Shown piece by piece: positions 46,129 through 63,864 of a stretch of DNA of 64,000 nucleotides. The stretch's first letter is position 1, and each line of letters opens with the position of its first letter. The position numbers were made by a program, and so were the translations under genes. Where the stretch lies: NCBI GenBank assembly GCA_001650895.1, contig LXYH01000016.1:186001-250000 (forward strand), given 5' to 3'. This DNA comes from Rhodobacteraceae bacterium EhC02 (GTDB lineage: Bacteria > Pseudomonadota > Alphaproteobacteria > Rhodobacterales > Rhodobacteraceae). The notes under the pieces were generated by a model that worked only from the letters and a program-made list of their open reading frames with translations, ran no database searches and was not told the origin of the DNA.

Positions 46129-46129
<1 letters not shown>
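45344..46129 (-). CDS. MBL-fold metallo-hydrolase (lactonase-like)
   Basis: The 261-residue hydrolase has HLHGDHCGG (HxHxDH) after FNVFLIRQGDALTLVDTGYG, with later ligands in WELPGHTPGHIG and FTGGHAVD. It resembles lactonases and quorum-quenching-type MBL enzymes. Its ATG overlaps the guaB stop by one base (TGATG), an unusual operon partner for guaB. Confidence 0.83.
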
Positions 46130-47829
<1,700 letters not shown>

Positions 47830-47836
47830 TCACCCC

Positions 47837-49933
47837 ATGAGCAGCGCGACCACCGCTTCCGCAGCGACACCACAGACCGCAGCATCCCAGGACCCTCTCG
47901 TCGTCTTCACCCCATCGGGCAAGCGGGGCCGTTTTCCGGTGGGCACGCCCGTCCTGACCGCCGCACGCCAGCTGGGCGTGGATCTGGACAGCGTCTGCGG
48001 CGGGCGCGGCATCTGCTCGAAATGCCAGATCACGCCGTCCTACGGCGAATTCTCGAAATTCGGCGTGACCTCCGAACCCGAGGCCCTCTCGGACTGGAAC
48101 AGCGTCGAGCAGCGCTACAAGGACAAGCGCGGCCTGATCGACGGGCGCCGCCTTGGCTGTCAGGCCACCGTGCAGGGCGACGTGGTCATCGACGTGCCCC
48201 CCGAAAGCCAGGTGCACAAGCAGGTGGTGCGCAAGGCGGCCACCGCCCGCGCCATCATCATGGACCCTGCCACCCGGCTCTATTTCGTCGAGGTGGAAGA
48301 ACCGGACATGCATGAGCCAACGGGCGATCTGGAACGGCTGGCCCGCGCCCTGCGCGACCAGTGGCAGATTGCCGACATCCGCGCCGACCTGTCGGTGCTG
48401 ACCAAGCTGCAGCCGGTGCTGCGCAAGGGCAACTGGCAGGTCACGGTGGCGCTTTACCGCGATCATCACGAAGGCCACGCGCGCCTGCTGGACATCTGGC
48501 CCGGTCTCTACGAGGGCGGTCTGTACGGCCTTGCCATCGACCTTGGCTCGACCACCATCGCAGCACATCTGTGCGATCTGGTCACCGGGCAGGTGCTGTG
48601 CTCCTCGGGTGTGATGAACCCGCAGATCCGCTTTGGCGAGGATCTGATGAGCCGTGTGTCATACGCGATGATGAACCCCGGCGGCGACAAGGACATGACC
48701 CGCGCGGTGCGCACCGCGCTCAACGGCCTGACCCAGAGCCTGAGCACCGAGGCCGGGATCGATCCCGCCACGATCTTCGAGGCGGTGATCGTCTGCAACC
48801 CGGTCATGCATCACCTTCTGTTGGGGATAGACCCGGTCGAACTGGGCCAGGCGCCTTTCGCGCTGGCCACCTCATCCTCGCTGTCGCTGCGCGCGACGGA
48901 TCTGGAATTCACCACGCTCAACGACCGCGCACAGGTCTATCTGCTGCCCTGCATCGCGGGCCATGTGGGGGCCGATGCCGCCGCCGTGGCCCTGTCCGAG
49001 GAACCGGGCAAGTCGCAGGATCTGGTCCTTGTCGTCGATGTGGGCACCAATGCCGAGATCCTTCTGGGCAATACGACCCGCGTTCTGGCCTGCTCCTCGC
49101 CCACCGGCCCCGCCTTCGAGGGCGCGCAGATCAGCGCCGGCCAGCGCGCCGCACCCGGCGCGATCGAGCGGATCGAGATTGATCCTGCCACCAAGGAACC
49201 GCGCTTCCGCATCATCGGCACGGAACTGTGGTCCGACGAGCCCGGCTTCGCCGAGGCCGCAGCCGCATCAGGCATCACCGGCATCTGCGGATCGGGCATC
49301 ATCGAGGCCGTGGCCGAGATGCGCATGGCGGGCCTGCTGGACGACTCGGGCCTGATCGGATCGGCCGACCAGACCGGCACGCCCCGCTGCATCGCCGAAG
49401 GGCGCACCCATGCCTACGTGATCCATGACGCCACCGCCGAGGGTGGGCCGCTGATCAGCGTGACCCAGGGCGACATCCGCGCGATCCAGCTGGCCAAATC
49501 CGCGCTTTACGCGGGCGCACGCCTGCTGATGGATGAAATGGGCGTCGACAAGGTGGACCGCGTGGTGCTGGCAGGCGCCTTCGGTGCCCATATCAGCCCC
49601 AAACACGCGATGGTGCTGGGCATGATCCCCGATGTGCCGCTCGACCGCGTCTTCAGCGCGGGCAATGCCGCCGGCACCGGCGCGCGCATCGCGCTGTGCA
49701 ACATCGGCAGCCGCGCCGAGATCGAGGCGACCGTGGGCAAGATCACCAAGATCGAAACCGCGATCGAGCCGAAATTCCAGGAACATTTCGTCGCCGCAAA
49801 TGCGATCCCGCACAAGACCGACCCCTTCCCGGAACTGTCCAAGGTGGTGTCGCTGCCCTCGCCCTCGTTCAACACGCGCGGCGAAGGCGGCGGCGGCGAC
49901 GACGGCGGACGGCGGCGGCGCAGAAGGGCTTGA
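47837..49933 (+). CDS. DUF4445/ASKHA corrinoid-activase-like protein with N-terminal ferredoxin
   Basis: The 698-residue protein begins with a plant-type 2Fe-2S domain (Cys54, Cys60, Cys63 in DSVCGGRGICSKC, fourth Cys in RLGCQATV), then an ASKHA ATPase-like region with AIDLGSTTIAAHL and LVVDVGTNAEILLG. This is the RACo/RamA-type architecture, a protein that uses ATP to reduce a corrinoid cofactor back to Co(I). Its C-terminus ends in a Gly/Asp/Arg-rich tail with six Arg in a row. No corrinoid methyltransferase is nearby. tRNA-Gly follows 35 bp later. Confidence 0.87.
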   Translation: MSSATTASAATPQTAASQDPLVVFTPSGKRGRFPVGTPVLTAARQLGVDLDSVCGGRGICSKCQITPSYGEFSKFGVTSEPEALSDWNSVEQRYKDKRGLIDGRRLGCQATVQGDVVIDVPPESQVHKQVVRKAATARAIIMDPATRLYFVEVEEPDMHEPTGDLERLARALRDQWQIADIRADLSVLTKLQPVLRKGNWQVTVALYRDHHEGHARLLDIWPGLYEGGLYGLAIDLGSTTIAAHLCDLVTGQVLCSSGVMNPQIRFGEDLMSRVSYAMMNPGGDKDMTRAVRTALNGLTQSLSTEAGIDPATIFEAVIVCNPVMHHLLLGIDPVELGQAPFALATSSSLSLRATDLEFTTLNDRAQVYLLPCIAGHVGADAAAVALSEEPGKSQDLVLVVDVGTNAEILLGNTTRVLACSSPTGPAFEGAQISAGQRAAPGAIERIEIDPATKEPRFRIIGTELWSDEPGFAEAAAASGITGICGSGIIEAVAEMRMAGLLDDSGLIGSADQTGTPRCIAEGRTHAYVIHDATAEGGPLISVTQGDIRAIQLAKSALYAGARLLMDEMGVDKVDRVVLAGAFGAHISPKHAMVLGMIPDVPLDRVFSAGNAAGTGARIALCNIGSRAEIEATVGKITKIETAIEPKFQEHFVAANAIPHKTDPFPELSKVVSLPSPSFNTRGEGGGGDDGGRRRRRRA

Positions 49934-49968
49934 CGCTCGGCACGGCCTCACTTACCTGTCAGATCGTC

Positions 49969-50042
49969 GCGGGTGTAGCTCAATGGTAGAGCAGCAGCTT
50001 CCCAAGCTGAATACGAGGGTTCGATTCCCTTCACCCGCTCCA
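49969..50042 (+). tRNA. tRNA-Gly (CCC), attL site of the integrated element
   Basis: GCGGGTG pairs with CACCCGC; D arm GCTCAATGGTAGAGC, anticodon loop TTCCCAA (CCC), T arm AGGGTTCGATTCCCT, encoded CCA. The last 62 bp (49981-50042) recur exactly at 60664-60725, so the element inserted into the 3' part of this gene and rebuilt it. Confidence 0.96.
49981..50042 (+). repeat. attL, 62-bp direct repeat
   Basis: Starts CAATGGTAGAGCAGCAGC and ends TTCACCCGCTCCA; identical to 60664-60725. Bases differ immediately outside on both sides. Confidence 0.93.
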
Positions 50043-50098
50043 CCACAGCAGTTATATGCGTTTACACTCAATAGCTTAGGCTTTTTGAGGTGTTATAA

Positions 50099-51199
50099 AT
50101 GCACACAAATATCACACGACACACGACTCTGATCAATGGTCACCTCTACTACAATCGTCGAGTTCCGGCGCATGCTCAGGGCGCTTTCGGTACCCAAATT
50201 CGGATCAGGATCAACAACGTACAAGAAGCTGAACGCCTTACAAGACGGCTGAACGACATCTGGGCTGAAGACGACATAACAGTCGCTCCCAACCTTGACG
50301 TGCTACTTGCAGCCACGACAACAAAACAAGCCACACTGACCGCGATAGCCTCAGAGTATGTCGAAGTGCGCGGCATTCAGGATAACCCAACCATCAGTTC
50401 CGCCTTGATGCTGGCCCAGTTGTCAGGGGACATGCCAATAGAAGGTTACGGCAGACAGGATGCGCGGTACTTTGTGAAGACACTTATTGATCGCGGCTTA
50501 AGAACAACGTCTGTTAGGCGGCGGTTGAACTGCTTAAGTGCAATCTTCAATTACGCATATGCTGAGTATGAAATTGTCGGGAGAAATCCGTTCTTGAGGG
50601 TTCTGGTCCCCAAAGAGGGTGTTGACCGTGTTAAGCGCGTTGCTTTTCAGCTTGATGAGTTAAAGCCACTATATGACGCATGCATTGCAAGCGACAGACG
50701 GTTGCGCTGGGCAGTACCAATCCTTGGCGAAACTGGATGCCGTATGGCTGAAGTGATCGGTTTGAGGCAGGCGGACGTTGCCTCTGACGGTTCTATGATC
50801 AAGATTACTGGTCACAACGCGAGACGGTTGAAGACGCCGGGATCCGAGCGGGAAATTCCTCTGGTCGGTTACGCGCAGGCTGCGGTTCAACAACTGCTAG
50901 AAACTAGCAACAGTGACCACCTATTCTCAGAGTACCTCAGGGACGGGACAGTTCTTGCAACACATGCAGGCAACACACTGAACAAATGGCTGAAAAGGGT
51001 CAGCAAGGGCAAAACAGCACATTCCCTGCGCCACGCCTTTCGAGATCGTCTGAGGGCCGTTGAATGTCCGATAGAACTACTGGATGCGCTGGGCGGATGG
51101 AGTAACGTGAAGGGAGCAGGTACTAAGTATGGGGCGGGACATTCACTAGAGCAAAAGCGCAACTGGCTGGAAAAAATAGCTGTGTTGGCAGAGGATTAG
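50099..51199 (+). CDS. int: tyrosine-type site-specific integrase
   Basis: The 366-residue integrase has a SAM-like core-binding domain at about 75-170 and a catalytic domain with Arg215 ([14 protein letters not shown]), HSLRHAF (His308, Arg311), GGW at 332-334 and Tyr344 (GAGTKYGAG). It reads away from tRNA-Gly and should catalyse integration between the tRNA attB and element attP. No excisionase is obvious. ATG 50099 lies 57 bp after the tRNA. Confidence 0.93.
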
Positions 51200-51317
51200 G
51201 CAATATGGTCCTGACTATGTCTTTCAAACTTTCAGGAAGGGCGTAGCAACACAGGTTGAGACTGCCCTAGTCCCTGAAAATCATGTCTCCCGCCTGCTTG
51301 GGCATGATCTCAAGACT

Positions 51318-51782
51318 ATGTCTTCCGGTAAAACCCATGTCGCGACAGCCCTTGGTGTGCAGGCCGTCGAACATCACCGCCGAAAGGTCCGTTTCTTCTC
51401 GACTATCGAGCAGGTCAACACACTTGAACAGGAGAAGGCCAAAGGGAAGGCTGGTCAGCTCGCCGAAAGCCTCACCAAGCTTGATCTCGTGATCTTGGAC
51501 GAGCTGGGCTACTTGCCGTTCAGCGCCTCGGGCGGCGCACTGCTCTTCCACCTGCTGAGCAAGTTATACGAACGCACCAGTGTCGTCATCACCGCCAATC
51601 TGAGCTTCACCCAATGGGCGACAGTCTTCGGTGATGCCAAGATGACCACCGCGCTGCTCGATCTCCTCACCCACCGCTGCCACATCCTGGAAACCGGAAA
51701 CGACAGCCACCGCTTCAAGGCCAGTTGGGCCGCCACTTTGCGGAAAACCAAGGAGGACAATCATGCCTTGACCAAAGCCTGA
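51318..51782 (+). pseudogene. IS21-family IstB helper ATPase, C-terminal fragment
   Basis: The 154 residues begin inside the Walker A motif ([12 protein letters not shown]) and continue with [29 protein letters not shown] (Walker B) and [13 protein letters not shown]. The first ~100 residues of IstB and all of IstA are missing. Downstream bases resemble an IS21-type end (AGTGGGTCAAATCTCGATGG), so one end of a degraded IS21 element sits here. Confidence 0.8.
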
Positions 51783-51881
51783 CCCCCGAAACATAACTTA
51801 GAAGTGGGTCAAATCTCGATGGAAAACCCGGGTCACTTCTGGGTGGAAATCAACACGTAAACATTGGGAACAATGCGACTG

Positions 51882-52361
51882 TCAGTCCACCAATGTGAAC
51901 GTATGTTCGTAGTGCCCCGCATCGCGCCGTGTCGTCACCATCTGACCACGTGCTCCAATGAATCGGCCCGTACCGCCAATGACAGCTCTGACATGCGGTG
52001 AATCTGGAGCCATTTCTGCTTGCTCGGCAGGGTATGCAGCCGTCCCGGCTATCACCAGTGTATCAGTACTACCAAAGTTTACCACAATCTGCGCAATACG
52101 GTCCAAAAAAACATCATTTTCGCCTACTGGGATCGAAACGGTAATGATGACGCCATGCATCTCACCAGATGTGCCATCATCGGCAGTAAAATCTGCCTCA
52201 AATGCCATTATATCACCATGAGAAGAACCTTGCGCACCAATGTCCACATGCGTGATGGCGGGTAATTCCTGCAGTATGGAAAACGTCTGATCCGCTGACG
52301 CGGGAACGGCAACCAAGCCTACCAACGCTAAAGCTGCAACGTGCGTGTGGTAATAGTTCAT
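51882..52361 (-). CDS. secreted protein with AOC-like barrel pattern
   Basis: The 159-residue exported protein (signal cut near VPASA) ends in VIGGTGRFIGARGQMVTTRR and EHTFTLVD, a pattern of allene oxide cyclase-like beta-barrel domains (VxGGTGxFxGAxG). It is a small secreted barrel; substrate unknown. ATG 52361 starts the signal peptide. It is inside the integrated element, with no operon partner. Confidence 0.7.
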   Translation of the reverse strand: MNYYHTHVAALALVGLVAVPASADQTFSILQELPAITHVDIGAQGSSHGDIMAFEADFTADDGTSGEMHGVIITVSIPVGENDVFLDRIAQIVVNFGSTDTLVIAGTAAYPAEQAEMAPDSPHVRAVIGGTGRFIGARGQMVTTRRDAGHYEHTFTLVD

Positions 52362-52629
52362 TGGTCAAGTCCTTTGTAAGTTACTGTGACTACTGACTTT
52401 ACAAAAAGCAAAGCATTCCCCATCGCTGATATCATGTCATCACACAAGGCGTATTTTCTTTGCCACGCAACTTGAGAATCTGAAAACCGCATGGGCCGGG
52501 CCAGATACAGAGAATTCAAGACACTCCCAAGACACTGGCGGCAACAGGCTAACCGTTTGCTGTCGCCCCCACTCCATGCCACTGCCCAATGCTGTCCCAG
52601 TTCAGGTGATAGTTCAGGTTACGGCAAAA

Positions 52630-52920
52630 TTACTCAGCGCCCTCAATGATCATCAGGTCTGTGTCAGAACATGTTTCACGCACAGCCTTTGCGGCTTGAT
52701 ATTCGGCACTAAAGTAGAACGTTTCGGCAGCTTGCTTGCTCTCAAACTCAATCATCATCAACGTGCCAGCGAGGTCACCTTCGTGCCTGTCCGCTGAGGG
52801 GCCTCTAGCTAGGACCTTGCCGCCATATTTCTTGATGACTGGTGCTGCCATGCCTGCAAATTCTTGGAACCTTTCAGCATCAGTGACCCTAATGTTCGCC
52901 ACCAAGTATCCCTTTGGCAT
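52630..52920 (-). CDS. DUF1330 family protein
   Basis: The 96-residue ferredoxin-like-fold protein reads KGYLVANIRVTDAERFQEFA, then APVIKKYGGKVLARG, EFESKQAAETFYFSAEYQAA: the DUF1330 pattern, a dimeric alpha/beta barrel of unknown activity. GGAGG precedes ATG 52920. The longer open frame to 53298 is not supported. Confidence 0.83.
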   Translation of the reverse strand: MPKGYLVANIRVTDAERFQEFAGMAAPVIKKYGGKVLARGPSADRHEGDLAGTLMMIEFESKQAAETFYFSAEYQAAKAVRETCSDTDLMIIEGAE

Positions 52921-53532
52921 ATCGATCCTCCATCCTTTTTGTCTGATAACTCCTTTGTAAGCCTTGCATTTATGCATGAGAATAACCACCCTATTTCTTA
53001 AAGTGGTATTTGACGGTATCGCCATTTCAAGATGCACGGCACGAGTGACTCGTACGTCGCCCACGAGGCAAACCTGATGGGCGGGCTGATAGACCCAAAC
53101 GACTACCGGCAAAATGTGATGGCGGTTGAGGCTGTCACTGGATGCACTGTAGATCCACGCACAATTATTAACAGCGGCCTTCAGATACGAGCGTTGGTCA
53201 TCTGCTAATTCTGATACCGAACCTTTTTCTTTGTCTTGGATTCTGAGGGATATACCGTCGCACCTCGTTTCATCTCCCCAGAGTCTGGAGGGTCCCATCC
53301 ACGCTGCGCAGCGCAGAGCCTGAAAGGCGACGCCCTACGGGCTTAGCAAGCTGCTATTACCACCAAAAAATTAGCCCCCCGCCAAGAGTGAGGCAGAGGG
53401 CTGGTCTTCCAAAGGGACTGGTGAATGAAAAACTTAGGGACAGCTAAAATGAACAACTTTAGAATGCGTTACTACCTTTAGATATGTCAACCGGAATATG
53501 AGGCACCTGTCACATGCGCGACAATAGACCTT
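52921..53532. other. gap in the element, possible short coding remnant
   Basis: About 610 bp with no full gene. A 58-codon frame on the plus strand (53032-53208), starting MHGTSDSYVAHEANLMGG and ending in QIRALVIC, has protein-like composition but no ribosome site or known family; it may be a fragment. Confidence 0.4.
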
Positions 53533-54087
53533 TTAGGATGCAAGGATGCGGTAGAGGCTGGCCCTGCTGATGCCCAGTTGGTCACAGACCTTAGCCTTGG
53601 ACATACCAGAGTTAAGCAGCGACAAAGCAGCATCTGACTTGTTCATGGCAGTGGGCTTGCGTCCTGTGTACTTACCTTCAGCCTTGGCCTTGGCGATACC
53701 TTCCCTCTGACGTTCAAGCATCATCTCACGCTCAAACTGGGCAACGGATGCCATGACGTTTAACATCATCTTCCCTGTGGCTGTCGTCGTGTCTATCTGC
53801 TGACCACCCATCGACAGGATAACCAAGCCTGAACCCTTGACCTCCAGTGTCTCAAGCAACTCCCCAAGATGCCTGACAGACCTAGCCAGACGGTCCAGCT
53901 TGGTCACTACCAGCTTGTCACCCTTACGCAGGGATTTGATAGCTGCATCCAGTTGGGGACGTTCACCAACAGACGACACTTGTTCCTGGTAGACTTCTTC
54001 ACAACCATAAGCCTGAAGGTCTCTGACTTGGGCTTCAAGTCCAGCCTGTTGGTCCAGCGTCGATGTTCTTGCAATTCCTACCAGCAT
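53533..54087 (-). CDS. serine recombinase (resolvase/invertase family)
   Basis: The 184-residue protein has the catalytic Ser9 in GIARTSTLDQQAGLEAQ, LVVTKLDRLARSVRHLGELL, then MMLNVMASVAQFEREMMLER, and a C-terminal helix-turn-helix ending SKAKVCDQLGISRASLYRIL. It is the length of Tn3-type resolvases/DNA invertases. ATG 54087 begins the family N-terminus. No res site or transposase was identified. It could resolve or invert part of this element. Confidence 0.93.
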   Translation of the reverse strand: MLVGIARTSTLDQQAGLEAQVRDLQAYGCEEVYQEQVSSVGERPQLDAAIKSLRKGDKLVVTKLDRLARSVRHLGELLETLEVKGSGLVILSMGGQQIDTTTATGKMMLNVMASVAQFEREMMLERQREGIAKAKAEGKYTGRKPTAMNKSDAALSLLNSGMSKAKVCDQLGISRASLYRILAS

Positions 54088-54639
54088 GTCTCGATCCCTG
54101 TGCCTGATTCTCAATAACATCTTAGTATATTCTGATAAATGCTTCAATAGGGTAGTTTTGGGAAGTTTTTGAGACACTATTCTCATATGTCGCTAGGGCA
54201 GGACCAACTGAGACGGGAAAAGTGTTTTCCAGAAAGTCTCGCAGTCTATGGGCCTAGGCATCGACCACTGTAGGATTTGGCATCCCGGCCATCTACCGGG
54301 TTCGATGGAAAATGGGATTTGACGACCGTCCTAGAGTTCGGTTTCCACTAGCTACGCAAAAGCCTACCTCGATCTTGGCACAGCATTTGGTACTAAGTAC
54401 GGAAAGCGGACCTTCGCTGCAGTGTGGGCCAAGGTCATCTACGAGGACCTAGCAGCCATTTACGATTTTGATCAGACGCTTCCAGTGGCATGAAAGACCT
54501 CGTTGTTGCCGGGCTGCTATCCACAATCCAGTGCCGAGCCTTCATGGATTAGCCTAAGCTCGATGGGCTGCGTAGCGCAGTCCCTGTGACGCCCGCATAG
54601 CAAAATTGATTTTCTGGAAAATTTTGGTTACTTCACATC
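54088..54639. other. gap in the element with decayed coding remnant
   Basis: About 550 bp with no start-bearing gene. An open plus-strand stretch ending at the TGA near 54495 reads SYAKAYLDLGTAFGTKYGKR, then TFAAVWAKVIYEDLA; it lacks a start and is probably the end of a lost gene. Confidence 0.4.
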
Positions 54640-55656
54640 ATGCCCGGACCCAAACCTCGCCCAATACCAAGCCACGGAGAGCTTGAAGCAGTTTATCCAA
54701 GACTAACGCTTGAAGAGGCTGCCGAACATTTTGGGGTAGGACAAACCCTCTTTTTTAAATGGTTGAAAGCTAGGGGCATTCCTCGAACAAGAACGCATCG
54801 CAAACCCAGAAGCGATGAACACAAGAAGCATCTTTCGGAAGCGCATCTGGCTAGGACCCGCGAGAAAAAGGAACCCAATCGCACCTGCCCGACTTGCCGC
54901 AAACCCTTCTATCTCAGACCCTCTTCGCTACTTGATGTTAATTATTGCTCCAGGGCATGTAAGGCGCTTGCGCAAAAAAATTCGCTTACCATGAAGAATT
55001 GCGAATATTGCGGACGGGAGTTTCAGCGTCGGAAGATTGAAACAAGCCAAAATTTCGCTCGAAGACGCTTTTGCTCGAAAAAATGCCAAACCACATCTGC
55101 ACCGCCACCAACTTACTTTGGCAAGGACAATCCTAAATGGAAGGGTGACGACGCGCGCCGACGTAATCGCCTTGGACCATCACGCAAGTGGCGAGAGCAA
55201 GTTCTGGCGAGAGACCATGCGACCTGCCAAAGGTGTGGGACCACGGATGTGACACTGGTAGTGCACCATATTTTGCCTTTTGAAACTTACCCGGAAAAGC
55301 GTTGGGACGTGGATAATGGCCTCACACTGTGTCAGCCATGCCATTTCAAGGAACATGGATGGGAACTAAGCGAAAAAGGCGTCCGAGAATTTACAGATGA
55401 GCGCGGAGTATTACTGCGCAGGTGGATCGGACCATGTCTGAACTGCGGGAAGTTCCTTGTGAAAAGGGCAAGCGATTTGAGGCGCACAGATGGAAGCACA
55501 AGAGACTACGCTTTCTGCTCAAATAAGTGCTCGCTAGAACTCGCTTGGAAACTCAGAAATGGTAAGTCGCCACGCTCCAGTTACTCAGACTTGTTTGAGA
55601 CTTATGCAAAGAGCCAAAAGATGAAGCGCAAATCCCAAAGCGGTCGGGCGCCTTGA
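54640..55656 (+). CDS. HNH endonuclease with repeated zinc-ribbon modules
   Basis: The 338-residue protein starts with a helix-turn-helix-like segment (YPRLTLEEAAEHFGVGQTLF), then two Cys4-type fingers (CPTCRKPFYL...CSRAC and CEYCGREF...CSKKC), the HNH core (CQRCGTTDVTLVVHHILPFE, then GLTLCQPCH) and a fourth finger (CLNCGKFLV...CSNKC). FCS/MYM-like fingers around an HNH suggest DNA binding and cutting; homing, defence or restriction roles are possible. It is on the plus strand alone. Confidence 0.85.
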   Translation: MPGPKPRPIPSHGELEAVYPRLTLEEAAEHFGVGQTLFFKWLKARGIPRTRTHRKPRSDEHKKHLSEAHLARTREKKEPNRTCPTCRKPFYLRPSSLLDVNYCSRACKALAQKNSLTMKNCEYCGREFQRRKIETSQNFARRRFCSKKCQTTSAPPPTYFGKDNPKWKGDDARRRNRLGPSRKWREQVLARDHATCQRCGTTDVTLVVHHILPFETYPEKRWDVDNGLTLCQPCHFKEHGWELSEKGVREFTDERGVLLRRWIGPCLNCGKFLVKRASDLRRTDGSTRDYAFCSNKCSLELAWKLRNGKSPRSSYSDLFETYAKSQKMKRKSQSGRAP

Positions 55657-55920
55657 TCAATCAGTGTAGCCGACGCTCACCCTGATGGGCGTCAAGGTCA
55701 GTATAGGTTCCAAGCTGTCATAGGTCGCAAAGCATACAAATGTCAGCTCAGGGCCGGAAGCGACAGCTTTCATAAAGGGCCGACAGCATACCTTTGGCTT
55801 AGGTGAGATTCTGAATTTGAGACTATGGCCCGAAAGACATTGAGATGAAGTCCCCTGGGTGGGAATATGAGCAAAGGAAGTGCAACCCGCAATCTGATAC
55901 GCGAGCGCCCCATCACTCAC
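55657..55920 (-). CDS. uncertain small ORF, hypothetical
   Basis: The 87-codon frame starts at a GTG and abuts the HNH stop. It has five Cys residues and no recognisable motif. Composition is only weakly protein-like. Confidence 0.25.
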   Translation of the reverse strand: MSDGALAYQIAGCTSFAHIPTQGTSSQCLSGHSLKFRISPKPKVCCRPFMKAVASGPELTFVCFATYDSLEPILTLTPIRVSVGYTD

Positions 55921-56148
55921 TTACCCTCACTCAAGCTACAGAACAAAAGGCAATGGCGCTCGACATATAGATAAATTGCATTTCAAGGCACAGCATTTAG
56001 TGGTTTATTATCTACAACGAAAAACCGTTCCGTATTTGGCGAAGCCAGTAAGGTGAAGCCTAAGTTGATACAGTAGTTGATACTGAATGAGTATTATACA
56101 CTAAGTATATCACTACTAACTAGTAATCCTGTCTATAAGTATAACCTT
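55921..56148. other. AT-rich gap, no gene seen
   Basis: About 230 bp of AT-rich sequence between the weak ORF and the stop of the polymerase-like gene; no motif or hairpin with T-run was convincing. Confidence 0.5.
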
Positions 56149-57435
56149 TCAGTTAAGATATTCTCCTATAAGGTCTTTATCTTCAGGTAACTTGTCTGTA
56201 CTTACTCCATCCCCCACCTCAACACTAAGGGGAACGAGAACTTCCAGACCATTCATTTTCTTACAATATTGATGAATTACTTCCCTGAAGGTCTTAGCGG
56301 CAACTATAGCATCTTTAGTCTTCACAATCAGACAATCATGAACAGGATATGCTGGGATGCCAACTTGCGCCAGTCGCTCTAGGGTCAACATCATCATCTC
56401 TGATTCATGATAACTCAGGAATCCCGCACCATTAAGATAACCCTCAACAGCCCCCTGCTTGTTGTAGCGGGGTTCAAGTTCTTCTAATGCAGGAACAGTC
56501 CGTACCAGTTGCTCTCGAAACGATTCCCAGCCTTGGGGCATCAGTCCAGTCTCTTTTACCAAATCATCAGTGGCTCTCGACTTGAGTGAGTTTCCACTTC
56601 CGATCAGCTCCATCACGACAGCTTTGGCAACTTTCCGGTTGCGCTTAATCTGTTCCATCACGTCGATTGTGTCGTCCACAACGGTCCACCAATGATTGAC
56701 GGAACCTAAGCGGGAAAGCTGTGAGTAGACGTCCCACCACTGCTCGCCCTTTTCTAACCCACCTAACCTGTAGCCCAGCAGACTGCTGAATAGCGTTGGC
56801 TGAGATGCTTTGATGTCGATCTCACAGATGGGGTCGCCGTCAATGGTGCAGAATAACCTCTCGGTGCCCTTATCCAAGCCAGTCCATGCACCATAAAGTC
56901 GGCCTCCTGCATCCATCCTGCCATCATGGTACACACGCGTTGCTGAGGCTGCAGAGTGGCCGTTTGGCATTTTCAGCGGGTGCTGAAGCCAGAACTGATT
57001 AAGGGCCTCTACGCGGCTCTCTGCGGCTGTGTGGGCATCTCCAAACAACTCCGTGCATTGCTTATTGTTCAAGAAAGGTTTGGATTGCTTCTGGAGATTG
57101 CGCTTATCTCTCTGTTGCCTTGTCTCTGCTTTATTGACCTTAACGGTAGGTAGGCCGACCTGAACGAACCGAGCATCTTCCAGTTTTTCAGGCAAAGAAG
57201 ACAGATCGACCTCGTACATCGTCATCCTGGGGTCTTTTGCCCACTTACCATTTTCATCTTTGAAGAGGCCGCTATCGCCAGAACCCTCGACGAGGTGTGC
57301 ACCAAAATACTCTACCAGGCGATCAATGACCTTTGGGGCAACATCCTTGCCAACCATCGGAAAGAGTGACCAGAGCTGATGCTCTACGATGAACGCCAAG
57401 ATAGTAAGGTTTTCTGGAGTTAGGTGACCTTGCAA
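56149..57435 (-). CDS. family A/T7-RNA-polymerase-like palm protein (main reading frame)
   Basis: This frame gives 428 residues from a TTG. Three motifs in order match the single-subunit right-hand polymerases: motif A CEIDIKASQP (Asp207), motif B RKVAKAVVMELIGSG (Arg267, Lys271, Met275), and motif C YPVHDCLIV (His366, Asp367). Motif B spacing equals that of T7 RNA polymerase (Arg627, Lys631, Met635, Tyr639), with Gly at the Tyr position. Families in mobile elements with DYSxLHP and HDSFIV motifs look similar. Product type (DNA, RNA, primer) cannot be told. The N-terminus probably lies in the 57323-57616 frame. Confidence 0.7.
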   Translation of the reverse strand: MQGHLTPENLTILAFIVEHQLWSLFPMVGKDVAPKVIDRLVEYFGAHLVEGSGDSGLFKDENGKWAKDPRMTMYEVDLSSLPEKLEDARFVQVGLPTVKVNKAETRQQRDKRNLQKQSKPFLNNKQCTELFGDAHTAAESRVEALNQFWLQHPLKMPNGHSAASATRVYHDGRMDAGGRLYGAWTGLDKGTERLFCTIDGDPICEIDIKASQPTLFSSLLGYRLGGLEKGEQWWDVYSQLSRLGSVNHWWTVVDDTIDVMEQIKRNRKVAKAVVMELIGSGNSLKSRATDDLVKETGLMPQGWESFREQLVRTVPALEELEPRYNKQGAVEGYLNGAGFLSYHESEMMMLTLERLAQVGIPAYPVHDCLIVKTKDAIVAAKTFREVIHQYCKKMNGLEVLVPLSVEVGDGVSTDKLPEDKDLIGEYLN

Positions 57436-57616
57436 TGGATTGAACAGATTTCAGAAAAGAAGCGACGACAACCTCATATCGCGACGCCTTTGGTCCACCG
57501 GCGGGAAAACCTAATCGTTCTGTAAGGTCAGCAACAATCTTGGAAGCAACATCATTGAAGGGCAACCATACTGGTCGCACGACTTCAAGAAGGTAGTCAT
57601 CTTTATCGAGGCTCAC
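57323..57616 (-). CDS. probable N-terminal part of the polymerase-like protein, shifted frame
   Basis: This 97-codon frame opens with MSLDKDDYLLEVVRPVWLPF and continues sensibly to about VVVASFLKSVQS, after which it reads SPNSRKPYYLGVHRRASALV and becomes implausible. The main frame becomes sensible at LQGHLTPENLTIL in the overlap. A one-base shift at about 57430-57460 would join them into one protein of about 485 residues. Either a mutation, a sequencing error or a programmed shift. Confidence 0.5.
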   Translation of the reverse strand: MSLDKDDYLLEVVRPVWLPFNDVASKIVADLTERLGFPAGGPKASRYEVVVASFLKSVQSIARSPNSRKPYYLGVHRRASALVTLSDGWQGCCPKGH

Positions 57617-57631
57617 AGATCACCCAAGCTG

Positions 57632-58171
57632 CTACGCTTGCCTCCAGTATGAGAATATCTCTGCTACAGCATCGGGGATAGCATCAGCAGCTTCGGCTAG
57701 GACCTGATCCAGTTCCTCCTGCGGTATACCCAACAGAGAGTTGCCGTTGTCGTCCAACAGGTGCGCAACTATCGGGTTTACCAGATGCCCGTCAGTGCCG
57801 CTCTCCGTGAGTCTCAGCCACTCTTTGGGACGTAGGGCAACCGCTTGCATGAAGCCCTCACACCAGTCCATCGCAATCACATGACCTTCATGCGCCTGCC
57901 AGAAGATGGGTTCAACGACTGGAGGATCAGCCACCAAGCCTTGAGCAATACCCATGTAGAGGTCAGTTATGTCGTTCAAGACCCAAACGGGTACCTCCCC
58001 AGGGTCTCCCCCTAACGCCACGGGTAGCCATTCATCTGAGTGGATCATCACTGGGGAGCAGATAACGCCATGAATGAAGCCATCAAGGTCCGACAGCATC
58101 ATGCAGTTTTCAGGACTGTCGTCTGAGGATAAGTACCCGTCCAGTGCCTCTAAATCTATGTTGTCGTCCAT
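57632..58171 (-). CDS. UPF0149 (YecA/YgfB) family protein
   Basis: The 179-residue acidic helical protein has the family start DGYLSSDDSPENCMMLSDLD followed by GFIHGVICSP and SDEWLPVALGG. It lacks the C-terminal zinc motif of YecA. UPF0149 proteins are poorly understood; YgfB in Pseudomonas modulates transcription. It lies 16 bp upstream of the polymerase-like frame on the same strand, so probably one transcript, and is divergent from HNH-HIT. Confidence 0.85.
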   Translation of the reverse strand: MDDNIDLEALDGYLSSDDSPENCMMLSDLDGFIHGVICSPVMIHSDEWLPVALGGDPGEVPVWVLNDITDLYMGIAQGLVADPPVVEPIFWQAHEGHVIAMDWCEGFMQAVALRPKEWLRLTESGTDGHLVNPIVAHLLDDNGNSLLGIPQEELDQVLAEAADAIPDAVAEIFSYWRQA

Positions 58172-58208
58172 ACTGGATTAACCCCGCTCGTCTGGGCATA
58201 GTCTTGGC

Positions 58209-59213
58209 ATGGAACAATCTCAGCACAAGCCTGATCTGGAAGATTTCATCCGTAGCATGATGAAGATGTCCCATGTTTACCAACCAGTGATGATCCAAAC
58301 CCTGTTGGAACATGGTGGTGCTGCCAGCCTTGAAGAAATAGCCCAAGCGTTGCTTAGGTATGATGTTCCCCAAGTCGAATACTACGCCATCAGAACCAAG
58401 GCGATGGTTGGCAAAGTGCTGACACAGAACGGTGTGGTCGAAGCCGTAAAGGATGGAAATAAAATCGTTGGCTATCGTCTGATCGATGATGACCTCTCAG
58501 ACCAAAGGAGAGCCTCACTGACAGCCATGTGCCGGGAGCGGCTTAACGACTACATCAACAAGCGTGGAGCGGCCATATGGGGGCACAGGAGCCTCTCTGA
58601 TGGCTATGTCAGTGGGTCTACCCGATACGAAGTGCTGAAGCGAGCCAAGCATCGCTGTGAACTGTGCGGAGCGCACGAAACCCAAGCAGCCCTTCACGTT
58701 GATCACATTGTTCCAAGAGCCAAAGGGGGCTCCGACGAACTGTCAAACTTTCAGGCCCTTTGTATATCATGCAACACAAGCAAACGGGACCGTGACGACA
58801 CTGATTTCAGGGAAGTATTGGCTTCCTATGATCATCGTGACTCTGGTTGCCTGTTCTGTGAACTTGGCGCTGGGCGTGTTGTTGATGAGAACGAGTTGTG
58901 CCTAGCAATACGGGACGCTTACCCTGTGACCCCACTTCACACGCTCATAATACCCAAGCGGCACATTGCCGATTACTTCGACCTTTATCAGTCAGAGCGT
59001 AATGCCATTGAGGCAATGCTTCACCAGCAACGACAGGTGATTATCGATGCTGATAAGTCAGTGACAGGCTTCAATGTCGGTATTAACGCAGGACAATCCG
59101 CAGGTCAGACGATCTTTCACGTCCATGTTCATCTCATCCCAAGAAGAGACGGCGATGTCGATGATCCTCGTGGCGGAGTGCGGGGCGTCATATCAAGCAA
59201 GCAAAAGTACTAA
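58209..59213 (+). CDS. HNH nuclease fused to HIT nucleotide hydrolase
   Basis: The 334-residue protein has three parts. Residues about 10-95 form a winged-helix-like domain (GGAASLEEIAQALLR). Residues about 135-195 are an HNH nuclease with two zinc pairs (Cys150/153, Cys185/188) and HVDHIVPRAKGG (His163, Asp165, His166). Residues about 208-315 are a HIT domain with a CLFC zinc pair (Cys214/217), PKRHIADYF and the triad HVHVHLIP (His304, 306, 308). HIT enzymes hydrolyse or transfer nucleotidyl groups. This pairing in a mobile element suggests a nucleic-acid or nucleotide-targeting defence effector (inference). Confidence 0.85.
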   Translation: MEQSQHKPDLEDFIRSMMKMSHVYQPVMIQTLLEHGGAASLEEIAQALLRYDVPQVEYYAIRTKAMVGKVLTQNGVVEAVKDGNKIVGYRLIDDDLSDQRRASLTAMCRERLNDYINKRGAAIWGHRSLSDGYVSGSTRYEVLKRAKHRCELCGAHETQAALHVDHIVPRAKGGSDELSNFQALCISCNTSKRDRDDTDFREVLASYDHRDSGCLFCELGAGRVVDENELCLAIRDAYPVTPLHTLIIPKRHIADYFDLYQSERNAIEAMLHQQRQVIIDADKSVTGFNVGINAGQSAGQTIFHVHVHLIPRRDGDVDDPRGGVRGVISSKQKY

Positions 59214-59241
59214 ATCTCACCTTATCCGTATACTCTAAGGC

Positions 59242-59691
59242 CTAACCGTCACGGGCATTGCAATCTAGCTCGTACTCTGCAGCTGAAGGTACAATTTCTG
59301 GCTCCGCGTTCTCGAACTCAAACAGTACAACTTCTCCTGTTACCGCTATGCTCTGCTCAGGATAGAGTAGATAAAAACTGGAGGCGTAAGCATCTGGATT
59401 ACCCGGATAATACTCTGCCGAAGCACATGAATGCTTCCTACATGTAAGCATCTTCGAGGCGCTGTTTCCTTGCAGGTCGGTGTAGATCAACGTCCCGCGC
59501 TCACCTCGTCGTATGAGAGTTCTTGTATGCTTCTCGTGCTGAGATGAAAGAACGCACACGTACTCTTTCTTGTTGTCGAAGTAATGCCAAGTTCTTGCTC
59601 GGTCCTGTATATCCTGAGAGTTGGCAGTCGAAACGAGAAGCATGCTGATGCCGACAGCATTGCTCAGAATACGCGCAGAAAAAACGGTCAC
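59242..59691 (-). CDS. secreted hypothetical protein
   Basis: The 149-residue protein has a signal peptide (about 1-25, ending near ANSQD) and four Cys (VCVLS, LTCRKHSC, LDCNARDG). No family known to me. Its GTG start overlaps the YbjQ-like stop (GTGA), so the two genes are coupled. Acidic C-terminal part (FEFENAEPEIVPSAAEYE). Confidence 0.6.
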   Translation of the reverse strand: MTVFSARILSNAVGISMLLVSTANSQDIQDRARTWHYFDNKKEYVCVLSSQHEKHTRTLIRRGERGTLIYTDLQGNSASKMLTCRKHSCASAEYYPGNPDAYASSFYLLYPEQSIAVTGEVVLFEFENAEPEIVPSAAEYELDCNARDG

Positions 59692-60182
59692 GTCTCAATC
59701 CTCACAGCAGTTCCTGATGCAACCAGCATCACCATCGACCCAACACTCGACAATTCGACATAATCCAAGCCAACACCAACAACGGCATTTGCTCCAACGG
59801 CATGGGCTTCCCTCTTCAGTTCGTAAAGGGCAGTCCTGCGTGCATCCCGCATGGTCTTCTGCACAGCCTCAGAACGACCACCAACGATGTCTCTGACGCC
59901 CGCAAACAGGTCTTTGAACATGTTCATGCCGAAGGCGCATTCAGCCGTCACGATCTCTATGCGTTCCAAGATTACCAAGCCTTGCGGATACGCCTCAGTG
60001 GTAAGCAGCACTAGATTTATGTCTTCAAGGTCTTTCTGGGAGGCCAGTTTTTTCTTAGCCGCTTCCTCGCTTGCACGGGCTCTGTTGTCAGGCGAAAGAC
60101 TGGCCAAGAAGCAAGGCTCACAAAACCCGTTGTTGCCCTCCAGAAAGCCCAGCTTCTTCCCGCACCCTTTGCAATCAGCCAT
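59688..60182 (-). CDS. YbjQ/UPF0145 protein with N-terminal zinc ribbon
   Basis: The 164-residue protein opens with a Cys4 ribbon (CKGCGKKLG...GFCEPC) and a charged linker, then the YbjQ-type domain: VTAECAFGMNMFKDLFAGVR, DIVGGRSEAVQKTMRDARRT, AVGANAVVGVGLDYVEL. Typical bacterial YbjQ proteins lack the ribbon. ATG 60182 begins the ribbon; an upstream ATG at 60212 adds ten unlikely residues. Function unknown. Confidence 0.8.
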   Translation of the reverse strand: MADCKGCGKKLGFLEGNNGFCEPCFLASLSPDNRARASEEAAKKKLASQKDLEDINLVLLTTEAYPQGLVILERIEIVTAECAFGMNMFKDLFAGVRDIVGGRSEAVQKTMRDARRTALYELKREAHAVGANAVVGVGLDYVELSSVGSMVMLVASGTAVRIET

Positions 60183-60204
60183 ATGTCCCGAACCTCTCCC
60201 AGAA

Positions 60205-60423
60205 TTGAACAAAGGTTATCGGGAAAAGCTAACGGCACAACCAGAGATCGATACAAACCCCAAAAGATATGACTGTCAGCCAACAGGTCAGTGTGAACGC
60301 CTCAGCAGGGCCATCAGGGAGCGCCACGGGCTGATGTCGTCACTTCTGCCGCTACACGCAATCAAAGCCCGAGACCGCCACCACGGTGCCCTACAGAGGC
60401 TCTACGGGCGCGCTGGGCATTAG
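60205..60423 (+). CDS. uncertain small ORF near attR
   Basis: A 72-codon frame from a TTG, with RLSRAIRERHGLMSSLLPLH and ALQRLYGRAGH, has protein-like composition but no family match and no clear ribosome site. Confidence 0.3.
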   Translation: MNKGYREKLTAQPEIDTNPKRYDCQPTGQCERLSRAIRERHGLMSSLLPLHAIKARDRHHGALQRLYGRAGH

Positions 60424-60473
60424 TTCAGCCCCGCACTGCTTGCGGTAGTAAGACTAAGCCATCCAATCACTGC

Positions 60474-60511
60474 GGAGATGTGGCCGAGTGGTCGAATGCG
60501 CTCCCCTGCTA
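60474..60511 (+). pseudogene. 5' half of a tRNA-Ser (GCT) gene
   Basis: GGAGATGTGGCCGAGTGGTC GAATGCG, then CTCCCCTGCT, match the acceptor, D arm and anticodon stem of tRNA-Ser(GCT); the sequence diverges within the anticodon loop, where pairing GGGAG should follow. Variable, T and 3' acceptor parts are missing. Confidence 0.75.
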
Positions 60512-60663
60512 CCAAAACTCATCTAATGGCAAGAAAATCGATCACACATCTGTTCACACATCGTCATTTTTGGTACTCGAGTCAGGGAGTGTAGACGTTG
60601 TGTAGCTGAGCCGACCTGTCGGCGGAGAGCCTTTCAAGCCATTGAAAATGGTGCAAAAAGGCG

Positions 60664-60725
60664 CAATGGTAGAGCAGCAGCTTCCCAAGCTGAATACGAG
60701 GGTTCGATTCCCTTCACCCGCTCCA
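60664..60725 (+). repeat. attR, 62-bp direct repeat of tRNA-Gly 3' end
   Basis: Identical to 49981-50042. The upstream acceptor and start of the D arm are absent, so this is not a functional tRNA. Confidence 0.93.
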
Positions 60726-61204
60726 AAAACCGCTTTGTCAAAACAAGCTTCAACTTCTGGTCGAAATATTTTGAAGCTCGACCTTGCATTGCTAGCTCGG
60801 CCACACCAATTTCTTTGGAGAGAGCGGTGGTTGCCGGGCCCATGTCACTCTCTAAATGGCAAAACCGGTGACTGGCCTAACGTGTGATGACCGCTACTGT
60901 AAGGGACCCGCACGCGAGTAAAGGTAAGGCACGTTTATGCGGGCAACTCTGACACTCGAAGCCAGCAGATCGAACGGTACGAAGTACCGTATGAGGCTGT
61001 CCTTTGGCTTTTTTGCTCTAGGCTGGCTTTTGAAGTACATCGGACTTTAGGTCTGGTTTGGGGTCGTTCTGTTGAGCGGCCCCAATTTCATCACACACGC
61101 TCCTTCCATCGTCGACAGCACCTTCCTGTCCTTGCGGGTTGAGACACGGCCGTTCTGCGCCTAGGTTCGCAGAAGCAGAGTGACCAACCCGAAGGAAGAC
61201 TGTC
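60726..61204. other. chromosomal gap after attR
   Basis: About 480 bp with no gene. ACGGTAC (60974-60980) and GTACCGT (60984-60990) form a short perfect hairpin with loop GAA. Nothing else is recognised. Confidence 0.5.
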
Positions 61205-61648
61205 ATGACATGGAACGTGTATCTCTCAGGCGAAATCCACACCGATTGGCGTGAGCAGATCATCAATGGCGCGAAAGGCCTTGATATCGCGTTCAATTCC
61301 CCGGTCACCGATCATGCGGCCAGTGACGATTGCGGGGTCACGATCCTGGGGGCGGAACCGGACAAGTACTGGCATGATCACAAGGGCGCGATGGTCAACG
61401 CCATCCGCACCCGCAAGGGTATCGCCGATGCCGATGTGGTGGTGGTGCGCTTTGGCGATCAGTACAAGCAGTGGAACGCCGCCTTCGACGCGGGCTATGC
61501 CGCGGCCCTCGGCAAATCGCTGATCATCCTGCACGGACCCGACCACCAGCACGCCCTCAAGGAGGTGGATGCCGCAGCCCTGGCCGTGGCGCAGACGCCT
61601 GATCAGGTCGTGGCCATCCTGCGCTATGTGATCGAAGGAAAGCTTTGA
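61205..61648 (+). CDS. ytoQ: YtoQ family protein
   Basis: The 147-residue protein opens with MTWNVYLSGEIHTDWREQI and has NSPVTDHAASDDCG and ADVVVVRFGDQYKQWNAAFD, the distinctive YtoQ strings. The fold resembles nucleoside 2-deoxyribosyltransferases, so a nucleotide-related role is possible. GAAGGAAGA precedes the ATG. The cupin gene starts 5 bp after the stop. Confidence 0.9.
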   Translation: MTWNVYLSGEIHTDWREQIINGAKGLDIAFNSPVTDHAASDDCGVTILGAEPDKYWHDHKGAMVNAIRTRKGIADADVVVVRFGDQYKQWNAAFDAGYAAALGKSLIILHGPDHQHALKEVDAAALAVAQTPDQVVAILRYVIEGKL

Positions 61649-61652
61649 CCCG

Positions 61653-62108
61653 ATGGCGGCATCCGGCATGGCGGCGCTTGGCGCGGCCCAGATCATCGAA
61701 CGCCTTGGCCTGATCCCGCATCCAGAGGGCGGCCATTACCGCCAGACATGGATCGACGGGTCCGAGGGCGCTGCGCGCCCCAGCGGCACCTGCATCTATT
61801 TCCTGCTGGCCGCCGGTGAACGCAGCCATTGGCACAAGGTCGACGCGGCCGAGATCTGGCATTTCTACGCAGGTGCCCCGCTGATCCTGTCGCTGGCCGC
61901 AACCGAGGCGGGCCCCGCGCGCGATCACCGTCTTGGCCCGGATCTTCTGGCGGGCGAGGCCCCCCAGATCATCGTGCCGCCGCATCACTGGCAGGCCGCG
62001 CGCAGCACCGGAGACTGGACGCTGGTCGGCTGCACCGTCAGCCCCGCCTTCCGGTTCGAGGGCTTCACCCTCGCCCCCGCAGGTTTCGACATTCCCCGCG
62101 CCGACTGA
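61653..62108 (+). CDS. DUF985 cupin family protein
   Basis: The 151-residue single-cupin protein starts with IIERLGLIPHPEGGHYRQTW, then TCIYFLLAAGERSHWHKVDA and EIWHFYAGAPLIL, and PPHHWQAARSTGDWTLVGCT: the DUF985/Cupin_5 family. The EGGHYR motif is the hallmark. Start 61653, or the inner ATG at 61668. Probably co-transcribed with ytoQ. Confidence 0.87.
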   Translation: MAASGMAALGAAQIIERLGLIPHPEGGHYRQTWIDGSEGAARPSGTCIYFLLAAGERSHWHKVDAAEIWHFYAGAPLILSLAATEAGPARDHRLGPDLLAGEAPQIIVPPHHWQAARSTGDWTLVGCTVSPAFRFEGFTLAPAGFDIPRAD

Positions 62109-62117
62109 CCCTTCGCC

Positions 62118-62564: not shown

Positions 62565-62581
62565 GGTGCCTGCTGCCTCCC

Positions 62582-63784: not shown

Positions 63785-63864
63785 CAGATCCCGATGCGCT
63801 TTGACAAGCGGCACCGGGTCAGAGTAACTGAACTGACGTTCAATTCTAAGGGAAGAGGGTTCAC

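Follow-up and report, generated by a model that had tools for sequence, protein, structure and literature searches.

A putative TV-Pol element integrated in the tRNA-Gly gene of an alphaproteobacterium

In the 64-kb window (the whole stretch of DNA that was analysed), 10.7 kb of foreign DNA was found inside the tRNA-Gly gene of an alphaproteobacterium. This DNA is probably an integrative, site-specific tRNA-integrating element of the TV-Pol kind, TV-Pol being defined by Iyer, Abhiman and Aravind in 2008 as a minimal polymerase related to family A and T7 RNA polymerase, carried by mobile elements with a resolvase or an integrase (PMC2579912). The boundaries, the integrase, the resolvase and the polymerase with its defining residues were seen directly, and the gene set is repeated at the tRNA genes of many Alphaproteobacteria. 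The assignment was made by description, from the features given in PMC2579912 and from the gene context; judged from sequence, polymerase, integrase and resolvase together mark the identity of the element. This kind has been known since the 2008 prediction and the window element adds one member to it. An undescribed new polymerase family was considered and dropped, TV-Pol (PMC2579912) and divPolA2 (PMC11348598) being already in the literature.

Boundaries and gene content of the element

The features of the element, with the matches on which they rest, are the following.

49969-50042, +, intact tRNA-Gly(CCC) (ARAGORN)
49981-50042, +, attL, the last 62 bases of tRNA-Gly(CCC)
50099-51199, +, tyrosine integrase, 366 aa (Pfam PF00589 1.9e-13; phrog_1 integrase 5.7e-37)
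51318-51782, +, fragment of the IS21-type helper ATPase IstB (PF01695 1.8e-46, from profile position 103)
51882-52361, -, ORF with a weak dirigent-like match (PF03018 0.0038, below cut-off)
52630-53298, -, DUF1330 protein (PF07045 2.7e-26)
53533-54186, -, serine resolvase/invertase, 217 aa (PF00239 1.6e-39; PF02796 4.7e-10)
54640-55656, +, HNH endonuclease with cysteine motifs, homing-endonuclease-like (PF01844 3.3e-7; phrog_1271 2.1e-21)
56149-57435, -, putative TV-Pol/divPolA2-type minimal family-A polymerase, 428-aa open frame (phrog_4756 2.4e-13; fold matches)
57323-57616, -, N-terminal part of the polymerase in another reading frame (tblastn of the G075 relative)
57632-58171, -, UPF0149/YecA family protein (PF03695 3.6e-28; PADLOC PDC-S12 1.9e-19)
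58209-59213, +, nuclease with fused HNH and HIT domains (PF01844 5.6e-13; PF01230 1.2e-19)
59242-59691, -, 149-aa ORF with no family match
59688-60212, -, YbjQ-domain protein (PF01906 3.3e-26)
60474-60511, +, 5' half of tRNA-Ser(GCT), a relic within the right end of the element
60664-60725, +, attR, exact 62-bp copy of the tRNA-Gly 3' part

An earlier note had placed an exact duplicate of the tRNA-Gly(CCC) 3' end at 60664-60725, and a direct string test bore this out: the 62 bases are identical to 49981-50042, and the att pair is the only exact 62-mer repeat of the window. A repeat search extended the pair to 65 nt (49978-50042 and 60661-60725), one position being mismatched. That attR could be a second tRNA of an unrelated array was rejected because the Rfam tRNA model matches it over positions 9-63 of 71 only and ARAGORN did not call it as a tRNA; it is just a 3' fragment. 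The integrase ORF starts 57 bp after the end of the tRNA, and the different base use inside the element was equally confirmed, with a GC content of 0.507 within it (50043-60663) versus 0.680 on its left (40000-49968) and 0.657 on its right (61200-64000); the 475 bp immediately to the right are also GC-poor (0.526). Only short tandem repeats or iterons were detected in the element. The element thus has the three marks of a tRNA-integrated genomic island: an integrase, a tRNA left intact and a displaced copy of the 3' part of that tRNA. A second island at tRNA-Asn was rejected, that stretch having neither a tyrosine integrase nor a direct repeat including the tRNA.

The same site was compared in six congeners (G001 to G006). 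The alignment of the left flank ends at window positions 50042-50045 in five of the six. In G002, G004 and G006 the left flank is shared with the window and the tRNA is single and intact; the homologue of window position 62655 follows this tRNA at 1,185, 1,239 and 3,409 bp, respectively, with no element between. The locus is interrupted by contig ends in G001 and G005; no tRNA-Gly was seen in G003, the contig of which stops within the right flank. The expectation that relatives lacking the element have an intact single tRNA was thus borne out in 3/6 congeners, but its second half, the 60726 flank directly after that tRNA, was observed in 0/6: the bases just right of the tRNA in element-free congeners differ from those of the window, and no base-exact empty site was found among the six. 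In G001, the right-flank gene of window 61205-61648 has a second tRNA-Gly fragment (92% identical) next to it, on a different contig from the tRNA-Gly of this genome. This fragment supports the right end of the element and suggests that the site has been used again.

Among 38 aligned integrases, the window's included, R215, R311 and Y344 are conserved in 37/38 and H308 in 36/38. The IstB fragment covers the second half of its profile only (NF038214 is matched from position 101, below its cut-off) and reads as an insertion-sequence remnant. The DUF1330 domain corresponds to the last ~95 residues of its ORF, of which the true start may lie nearer 52920; ~295 bp of this gene are 85-86% identical by blastn to stretches in L132 (G075) and L136 (G153), which are fetched flanks of other polymerase loci. 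The N-terminus of the endonuclease at 54640-55656 weakly matches an excisionase-type HTH (TIGR01764, 0.021). Over 274 aligned bases (blastn) the YbjQ gene shares 75% identity with DNA close to tRNA-Ser(GCT) in G106 (L143), and the tRNA-Ser relic is 95% identical over 39-40 nt to the tRNA-Ser(GCT) genes of L062, L063 and L143. Window proteins were submitted to family scans, ten proteins each, in partly different sets; in agreement with the earlier note, no phage structural or conjugation gene, and likewise no relaxase or type IV secretion gene, was recognised among the ten proteins of each scan.

The polymerase: residues, fold and condition

The polymerase gene had been described in the earlier note as polymerase-like; this part stood, while the TV-Pol identity, telling in company with the integrase and the resolvase, had been missed. 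Pfam, NCBIfam and PADLOC returned nothing significant for it, its sequence gave no PDB match of value, and the best PDB profile matches were mitochondrial RNA polymerases with a non-significant E of 0.24. Seven residues of the window polymerase, R179, D207, D235, R267, K271, H366 and D367, were followed in 40 aligned polymerases: R179, D207, K271 and D367 are present in 40/40, R267 and H366 in 39/40, D235 in 38/40. TV-Pol is characterized by an arginine of a beta-hairpin before the palm, two metal-binding palm aspartates, and an aspartate and an RxxxK motif in the fingers (PMC2579912). By our reading, in which the positions were equated, the conserved residues other than H366 would be these named features, the palm aspartates being D207 and D367. 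According to the same paper, TV-Pol is globular, has 400-600 residues and lacks a nuclease domain (PMC2579912); the open frame of the window encodes 428 aa, the relatives reach 648 aa, and no nuclease family was found in the 15 members scanned. One of these 15 matched the RNA polymerase family phrog_414 (3.9e-4). In DNA polymerases the position after the catalytic HD is occupied by E; all 40 aligned proteins have S, C, A or G there and none has E.

At E <= 1e-3, the AlphaFold model of the window polymerase (pLDDT 72.8, pTM 0.72) has 47 matches in the PDB, every one of them either a family-A DNA polymerase or a mitochondrial RNA polymerase. For a relative (model pLDDT 89.4, pTM 0.88) there are 55 matches, of which the best 50 are all family-A DNA polymerases. 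N-terminal helices are predicted in the model of the relative at residues 15-33, 40-63, 75-83 and 93-105. A helical N-terminal globular domain is reported for the mobile-element subset of TV-Pol (PMC2579912). The N-terminal region is frameshifted in the window copy: in tblastn, residues 4-52 of the G075 relative match frame -2 and residues 69-453 frame -3, the switch occurring between 57378 and 57431. The dN/dS values of 0.21 and 0.20 in two pairs of polymerases (dS 1.2 and 0.9) point to purifying selection.

Relatives of the polymerase and their surroundings

Relatives of the polymerase were found in 14 other genomes out of 248 of the family and in 25 others out of 385 of the class; a draw from the phylum gave 24 of 398 genomes, the window's own included, all but G753 belonging to the same class (the out-of-class share of the 398 not being given). 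From the 26 class genomes with a match, G414 and G596 (weak) were left out of the fetched loci, and the phylum draw added L206, L207 and L208 only. In L207, tRNA-Ala is followed directly by an integrase, with the polymerase; in L208, tRNA-Gln adjoins the polymerase and the integrase is ~5 kb away on the other side; L206, a 5.9-kb contig, has neither tRNA nor integrase.

The surroundings of 44 polymerase loci (window included) were compared with 20 stretches taken from the same genomes as controls. A tyrosine integrase or a fragment of one occurs within 8 kb in 31/44 loci versus 1/20 controls (Fisher p 1.2e-6), L066 and L114 having only fragments under 100 aa; an integrase starts no more than 300 bp from the 3' end of a tRNA in 18/44 versus 0/20 (p 5.6e-4); and a serine resolvase is found within 8 kb in 14/44 versus 0/20 (p 3.0e-3). 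The 13 loci with no integrase within 8 kb are eight short stretches near contig ends, L063, L065, L125, L126 and L129, the last being probably a plasmid. Of the 26 other tRNA-bearing loci, 15 contain a repeat of 17-88 bases that copies part of the tRNA exactly, and 11 have none in the fetched stretch. Fourteen of these 15 are thereby delimited to 6.0-14.0 kb with the polymerase inside, L108 (repeat of 17 nt, 17.3 kb) being excluded. These results agree with the picture of TV-Pol elements as one family of small, scattered mobile elements that are often located in tRNA genes.

Integrase, polymerase and resolvase are the only families found in more than 4 of 41 clustered loci; in three loci, RNase HI is at most 250 bp away from the polymerase. 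The cargo of the related loci was analysed through 86 proteins of 80 aa or more, with Pfam on all and PADLOC and PHROGs on 41. Matches, recorded by protein set and not by member, include restriction-modification genes (NgoMIV-type, type III and type I-like) and a single ATPase labelled AbiEii. Virion-labelled cargo comprised internal virion protein families only, one member each (41 proteins; 25 of 31 PHROGs families listed), and Pfam T7_gp14 was also among the matches. The cargo, restriction-modification genes included, varies among related elements, wide recurrence being limited to the three families named.

One relative lies on a contig that consists entirely of head-to-tail copies of a ~8.9-kb unit, with RepA, ParA and a resolvase and no integrase match; it is a probable small plasmid, judging by this arrangement, and since RepA is also encoded there the TV-Pol need not be the initiator. 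The 7,495-bp contig L060 was considered as a circle and rejected, its ends having no overlap. The window polymerase as query found no close relatives among viral contigs and plasmids; a relative as query retrieved 3 plasmid records. Relatives also occur in large phages such as ICP1, and the six phage copies included in the tree form one group (94/91). With the relative from Vibrio phage 1.121.O as tblastn query, 177 phage records were obtained, 114 of them from Rheinheimera (Barba), the matches listed being at E 2e-4 to 5e-4; the fold search matched a Barba31A entry at 3.6e-19. Tailed-phage versions received the name divPolA2 in 2024 (Yutin et al., PMC11348598), and through the phage relative and the fold match divPolA2 and the element polymerase appear as one sequence family.

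Proposed mode of action, alternatives and known systems

The integrase would recombine the 62-bp core in the 3' end of tRNA-Gly, by which the tRNA would be kept whole, and the element could leave as a circle. The polymerase would probably prime and/or copy this excised circle and the resolvase would separate multimers, the remaining genes representing exchangeable cargo. As no transfer gene was recognised, the element would have to rely on DNA uptake, a phage or a conjugative element for passage from cell to cell. The window copy itself is probably past its prime, because the N-terminal part of its polymerase is frameshifted and an IS21 remnant adjoins its integrase. It is possible, though we lean against it, that it is an altogether defunct leftover, decayed, with no present activity and retained by chance; the tRNA-Ser relic adds to the frameshift and the IstB fragment in this sense, while the identity of the att copies over 62 bp and an open integrase with its conserved residues speak against it. 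A dedicated RNA polymerase that transcribes the genes of the element, as in T7, and replicates no DNA seems improbable: the residue behind the HD, the phrog_414 match and the mitochondrial enzymes heading the non-significant profile matches favour it, and Yutin et al. leave this option open for divPolA2 in the available part of their text (PMC11348598). However, family-A DNA polymerases rank first by predicted fold, no promoter-specificity domain was recognised in the polymerase, and the context argument of 2008 favours a primase and polymerase (PMC2579912).

The earlier note had read the element as a satellite or defence island. Its compact, att-bounded nature within tRNA-Gly and its nuclease, polymerase-like and resolvase genes were confirmed; neither name was. 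A phage satellite, leaving the chromosome and replicating when a phage infects the cell and using the capsid of a helper for packaging, would be compatible with the TV-Pol reading but is rather unlikely. The size and layout (small, att-flanked, an integrase and a replication-type gene) agree with it, similar elements are described as PICMIs (PMC10803314) and as tmRNA islands moved by a jumbo phage (PMC12595487), at least in the portions of these papers available, and large phages possess polymerase relatives. Against it, no AlpA, terminase, capsid-remodelling or packaging gene was recognised among the window proteins scanned, the sole packaging-labelled match (phrog_4581, 'terminase small subunit') spanning HNH domains only, the virion-labelled cargo listed for related loci is restricted to internal virion proteins, and no helper is known. 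Very unlikely is a defence island in which the HNH, HNH-HIT and UPF0149 genes guard the host and mobility is incidental. The sister elements do carry restriction-modification genes and the AbiEii-labelled ATPase, and the UPF0149 protein matches the candidate family PDC-S12; yet the other PADLOC matches of the window element are weak and generic (HNH and HIT), no complete known system was found in it by PADLOC, and what the family conserves is integrase and polymerase, not cargo.

The integrative TV-Pol reading was compared with known systems. PICMIs and tmRNA-targeting islands are likewise integrase-driven without transfer genes (PMC10803314, PMC12595487); PICMIs are small, with six genes (int, alpA, prim and three unknown) (PMC10803314), and the tmRNA-targeting islands carry defence cargo (PMC12595487). 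Unlike the window element, both are described in the available parts of these sources with AlpA, and PICMIs with a DUF3987/DUF5906-type primase (PMC10803314), neither of which was recognised among the window proteins scanned. For divPolA2, mitochondrial RNA polymerase and PolA are the fold neighbours in both studies, but divPolA2 is phage-borne, and the Barba copies stand beside a regular polymerase, so that a role in repair or as an RNA polymerase is favoured there, according to the part of PMC11348598 available. The main text of that paper contains no word starting with 'mobile' or 'satellite'; it cites the 2008 TV-Pol paper, and the two families are not equated in the text available.

The TV-Pol elements of PMC2579912 share with the present one the hairpin arginine, the two acidic residues and the fingers D and RxxxK, as well as lambda-type integrase and gamma-delta resolvase neighbours with restriction-modification genes around, and rhodobacters are listed among their hosts. 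That paper ties a D5 helicase to another TV-Pol subset; none was seen here among the families listed for window and related-locus cargo (25 of 32 listed for one cargo set). It proposes replicative transposons and its main text does not mention tRNA, whereas the relatives found here are often at tRNA 3' ends with att repeats, a site-specific mode of integration. In the 2008 prediction, TV-Pol unites the functions of primase and polymerase and represents the PolA/T7-RNAP class in its minimal form (PMC2579912). Material for a test of this prediction is now provided by bounded elements having intact relatives and a clear integration site at tRNA 3' ends, by three loci in which RNase HI adjoins the polymerase, and by the plasmid-like relative. 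Two literatures are also connected, the TV-Pol of elements being linked here with the divPolA2 of phages.

Pipolins, according to the text of PMC7385651 available, are tRNA-integrated, have att repeats and mostly tyrosine recombinases, and share only the polymerase gene and the att sites, the rest being variable; their polymerase is of family B, versus family A here by fold matches. We tentatively propose, as a rather doubtful extension, that TV-Pol elements might be the family-A counterpart of pipolins: site-specific, tRNA-integrating elements in which a minimal polymerase would start and extend synthesis on its own excised circle with no separate primase, RNase HI being recruited in some lineages to remove RNA. 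Such elements might be the source pool of the divPolA2 copies of large phages and of those of small plasmids, and could then serve as a living model for the ancestor of PolA and T7-type RNA polymerases.

The element in tRNA-Gly and its site in relatives

The features on which the description rests are the following (window positions):

49969-50042: tRNA-Gly(CCC), with its last 62 bases repeated at 60664-60725
56149-57435, minus strand: TV-Pol/divPolA2-type minimal family-A polymerase, 428-aa open frame
58209-59213: HNH nuclease and HIT domain in one fused protein
60474-60511: tRNA-Ser(GCT) relic (5' half, 38 bases), inside the right end of the element

The element in tRNA-Gly is real. Its exact 62-bp att repeats, its different base use (GC 0.507 between the copies versus 0.680 and 0.657 outside) and the integrase start 57 bp past the tRNA were all described in the earlier note and were recovered here. 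No other exact 62-mer repeat occurs in the 64-kb window, and by score the second copy is a tRNA fragment only.

The right flank was searched against 60 relatives and ten stretches were fetched around tRNA-Gly or right-flank matches. In five of the six congeners, the left-flank alignment ends at the last tRNA base or three bases past it. A single tRNA-Gly without element is present in G002, G004 and G006, with the homologue of window 62655 lying 1.2 to 3.4 kb downstream. The sequence immediately right of tRNA-Gly is unlike in each of these three genomes, so that the 60726 flank, which the earlier note had expected directly behind the tRNA, was found there in none of the six congeners. The congener G001 carries a decayed second copy of the tRNA-Gly 3' part (92%; L025, contig C15, locus positions 10757-10818) which adjoins the same right-flank gene as in the window and has an integrase ORF beside it, pointing to a repeated use of this tRNA-Gly site.

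At the right end, the YbjQ gene is followed after about 500 bp by the tRNA-Ser(GCT) relic. Since this order is that of a stretch near tRNA-Ser(GCT) in the genome G106, a former location at a tRNA-Ser is suggested for the element or just for its right part. Elsewhere in the window, the stretch 2001-11000 is GC-poor (0.53-0.61) and adjoins tRNA-Asn (1875-1949); neither a tyrosine integrase nor a tRNA-derived repeat was found in it.

Gene content and the polymerase

Pfam, PHROGs and NCBIfam named an integrase, an IstB fragment, DUF1330, a serine resolvase, an HNH protein with cysteine motifs, UPF0149, the HNH-HIT fusion and the YbjQ protein, and no complete defence system was detected in the element by PADLOC. 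The polymerase gave no significant match to Pfam, NCBIfam or PADLOC and a single one to PHROGs (phrog_4756, unknown function). Residues D207, R267, K271, H366 and D367 are invariant in a 15-row alignment, and in the window's own gene the N-terminal 60 residues or so sit in a different reading frame. The core of the model predicted from the 428-aa frame is confident, and its PDB matches at E <= 1e-3 are exclusively family-A DNA polymerases and mitochondrial RNA polymerases. The relative from G503, modelled from 40 rows (pLDDT 89.4), retrieved family-A DNA polymerases throughout the best 50 of 55 PDB matches. Its first twelve viral matches are proteins of 400-450 residues (E 2.5e-22 to 4.6e-10), mostly unnamed, one being labelled 'DNA polymerase of Barba31A'. 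In two pairs of polymerase relatives dN/dS is near 0.2, with dS around 1, and these sequence comparisons therefore indicate purifying selection on the polymerase.

Genomic context of the polymerase relatives

Polymerase matches were obtained in 15/248 genomes of the family, 26/385 of the class and 24/398 of a phylum draw, the last all of the same class except one (G753); the draws overlap, and the window's own genome is among the matches of each. Three further loci came from the phylum draw: one has the same tRNA-integrase-polymerase layout, another a tRNA and polymerase with the integrase farther off, and the third is a short contig without tRNA or integrase.

The search profiles were derived from the ORFs of the fetched loci. 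Of 44 loci (the window and 43 others), 31 have a tyrosine integrase, whole or fragmentary, at most 8 kb from the polymerase and 14 have a serine resolvase there; in 18, the integrase start follows immediately on the 3' side of a tRNA (Ser, Leu, Gly, Cys, Thr, Val, Glu or Met). The corresponding values were 1, 0 and 0 in 20 control stretches, which were positioned at round coordinates within this set of genomes. An exact tRNA-derived repeat is present in the fetched stretch of 15 of the 26 other tRNA-bearing loci and absent from that of 11. Fourteen elements could be delimited; they measure 6.0 to 14.0 kb and have repeats of 17 to 88 bases, of which those with 17 to 20 bases are provisional. 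Among their cargo are restriction enzymes, DNA methylases and AAA ATPases. When 615 ORFs near the polymerase gene were clustered from 41 loci, only the polymerase (41), integrase (28) and resolvase (14) families occurred in more than four. RNase HI lies less than 250 bp from the polymerase in three loci (L110, L118, L130). At locus L059 (G075), both an integrase and a TV-Pol gene are found on each side of tRNA-Leu, which may mean that two divergent elements share this tRNA.

In G357, an entire contig of 21,261 bp (C14; L129/L205) consists of a unit of about 8.9 kb repeated head to tail, encoding RepA, a ParA-type ATPase, a serine recombinase, a D12 methylase and the polymerase; no integrase match was obtained on this contig. 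Its long self-matches are 99.2-99.9% identical and the Sel1 repeat number varies between copies. The contig is probably the concatemeric assembly of a small circular plasmid, and a real tandem array could also account for it.

Phage relatives and known systems

The window protein matched 44 phage records, the G503 relative 89 and a Vibrio phage relative 177 (114 of them Rheinheimera); the phage matches listed are mostly annotated as hypothetical. Vibrio phage ICP1 (GP100; locus L197) encodes a polymerase relative also annotated as hypothetical. In a 46-row tree, six chosen phage proteins form one group (support 94/91) and the window polymerase belongs to a separate group of 14 rows (100/99), 10 of which have a resolvase in the fetched locus; its nearest rows are from G075, G171 and G147. 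Because this tree has long end branches, 13 of 43 inner branches open and a root for drawing only, it gives no direction of transfer.

TV-Pol was described in 2008 from mobile elements that carry an integrase or a gamma-delta resolvase and lie near restriction-modification genes; it has the same polymerase features and was predicted to be a primase plus polymerase (PMC2579912). The window element is a new member of these TV-Pol mobile elements, and its attachment sites at the tRNA are clear. Of its mechanism, the analysis shows where it integrates, which genes it carries and that the arrangement recurs; beyond this, it would excise, be replicated by its polymerase and be transferred. A 2024 paper describes divPolA2 in Barba and other phages (PMC11348598). 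Pipolins (PMC7385651), PICMIs (PMC10803314) and jumbo-phage-moved islands (PMC12595487) are functional parallels.
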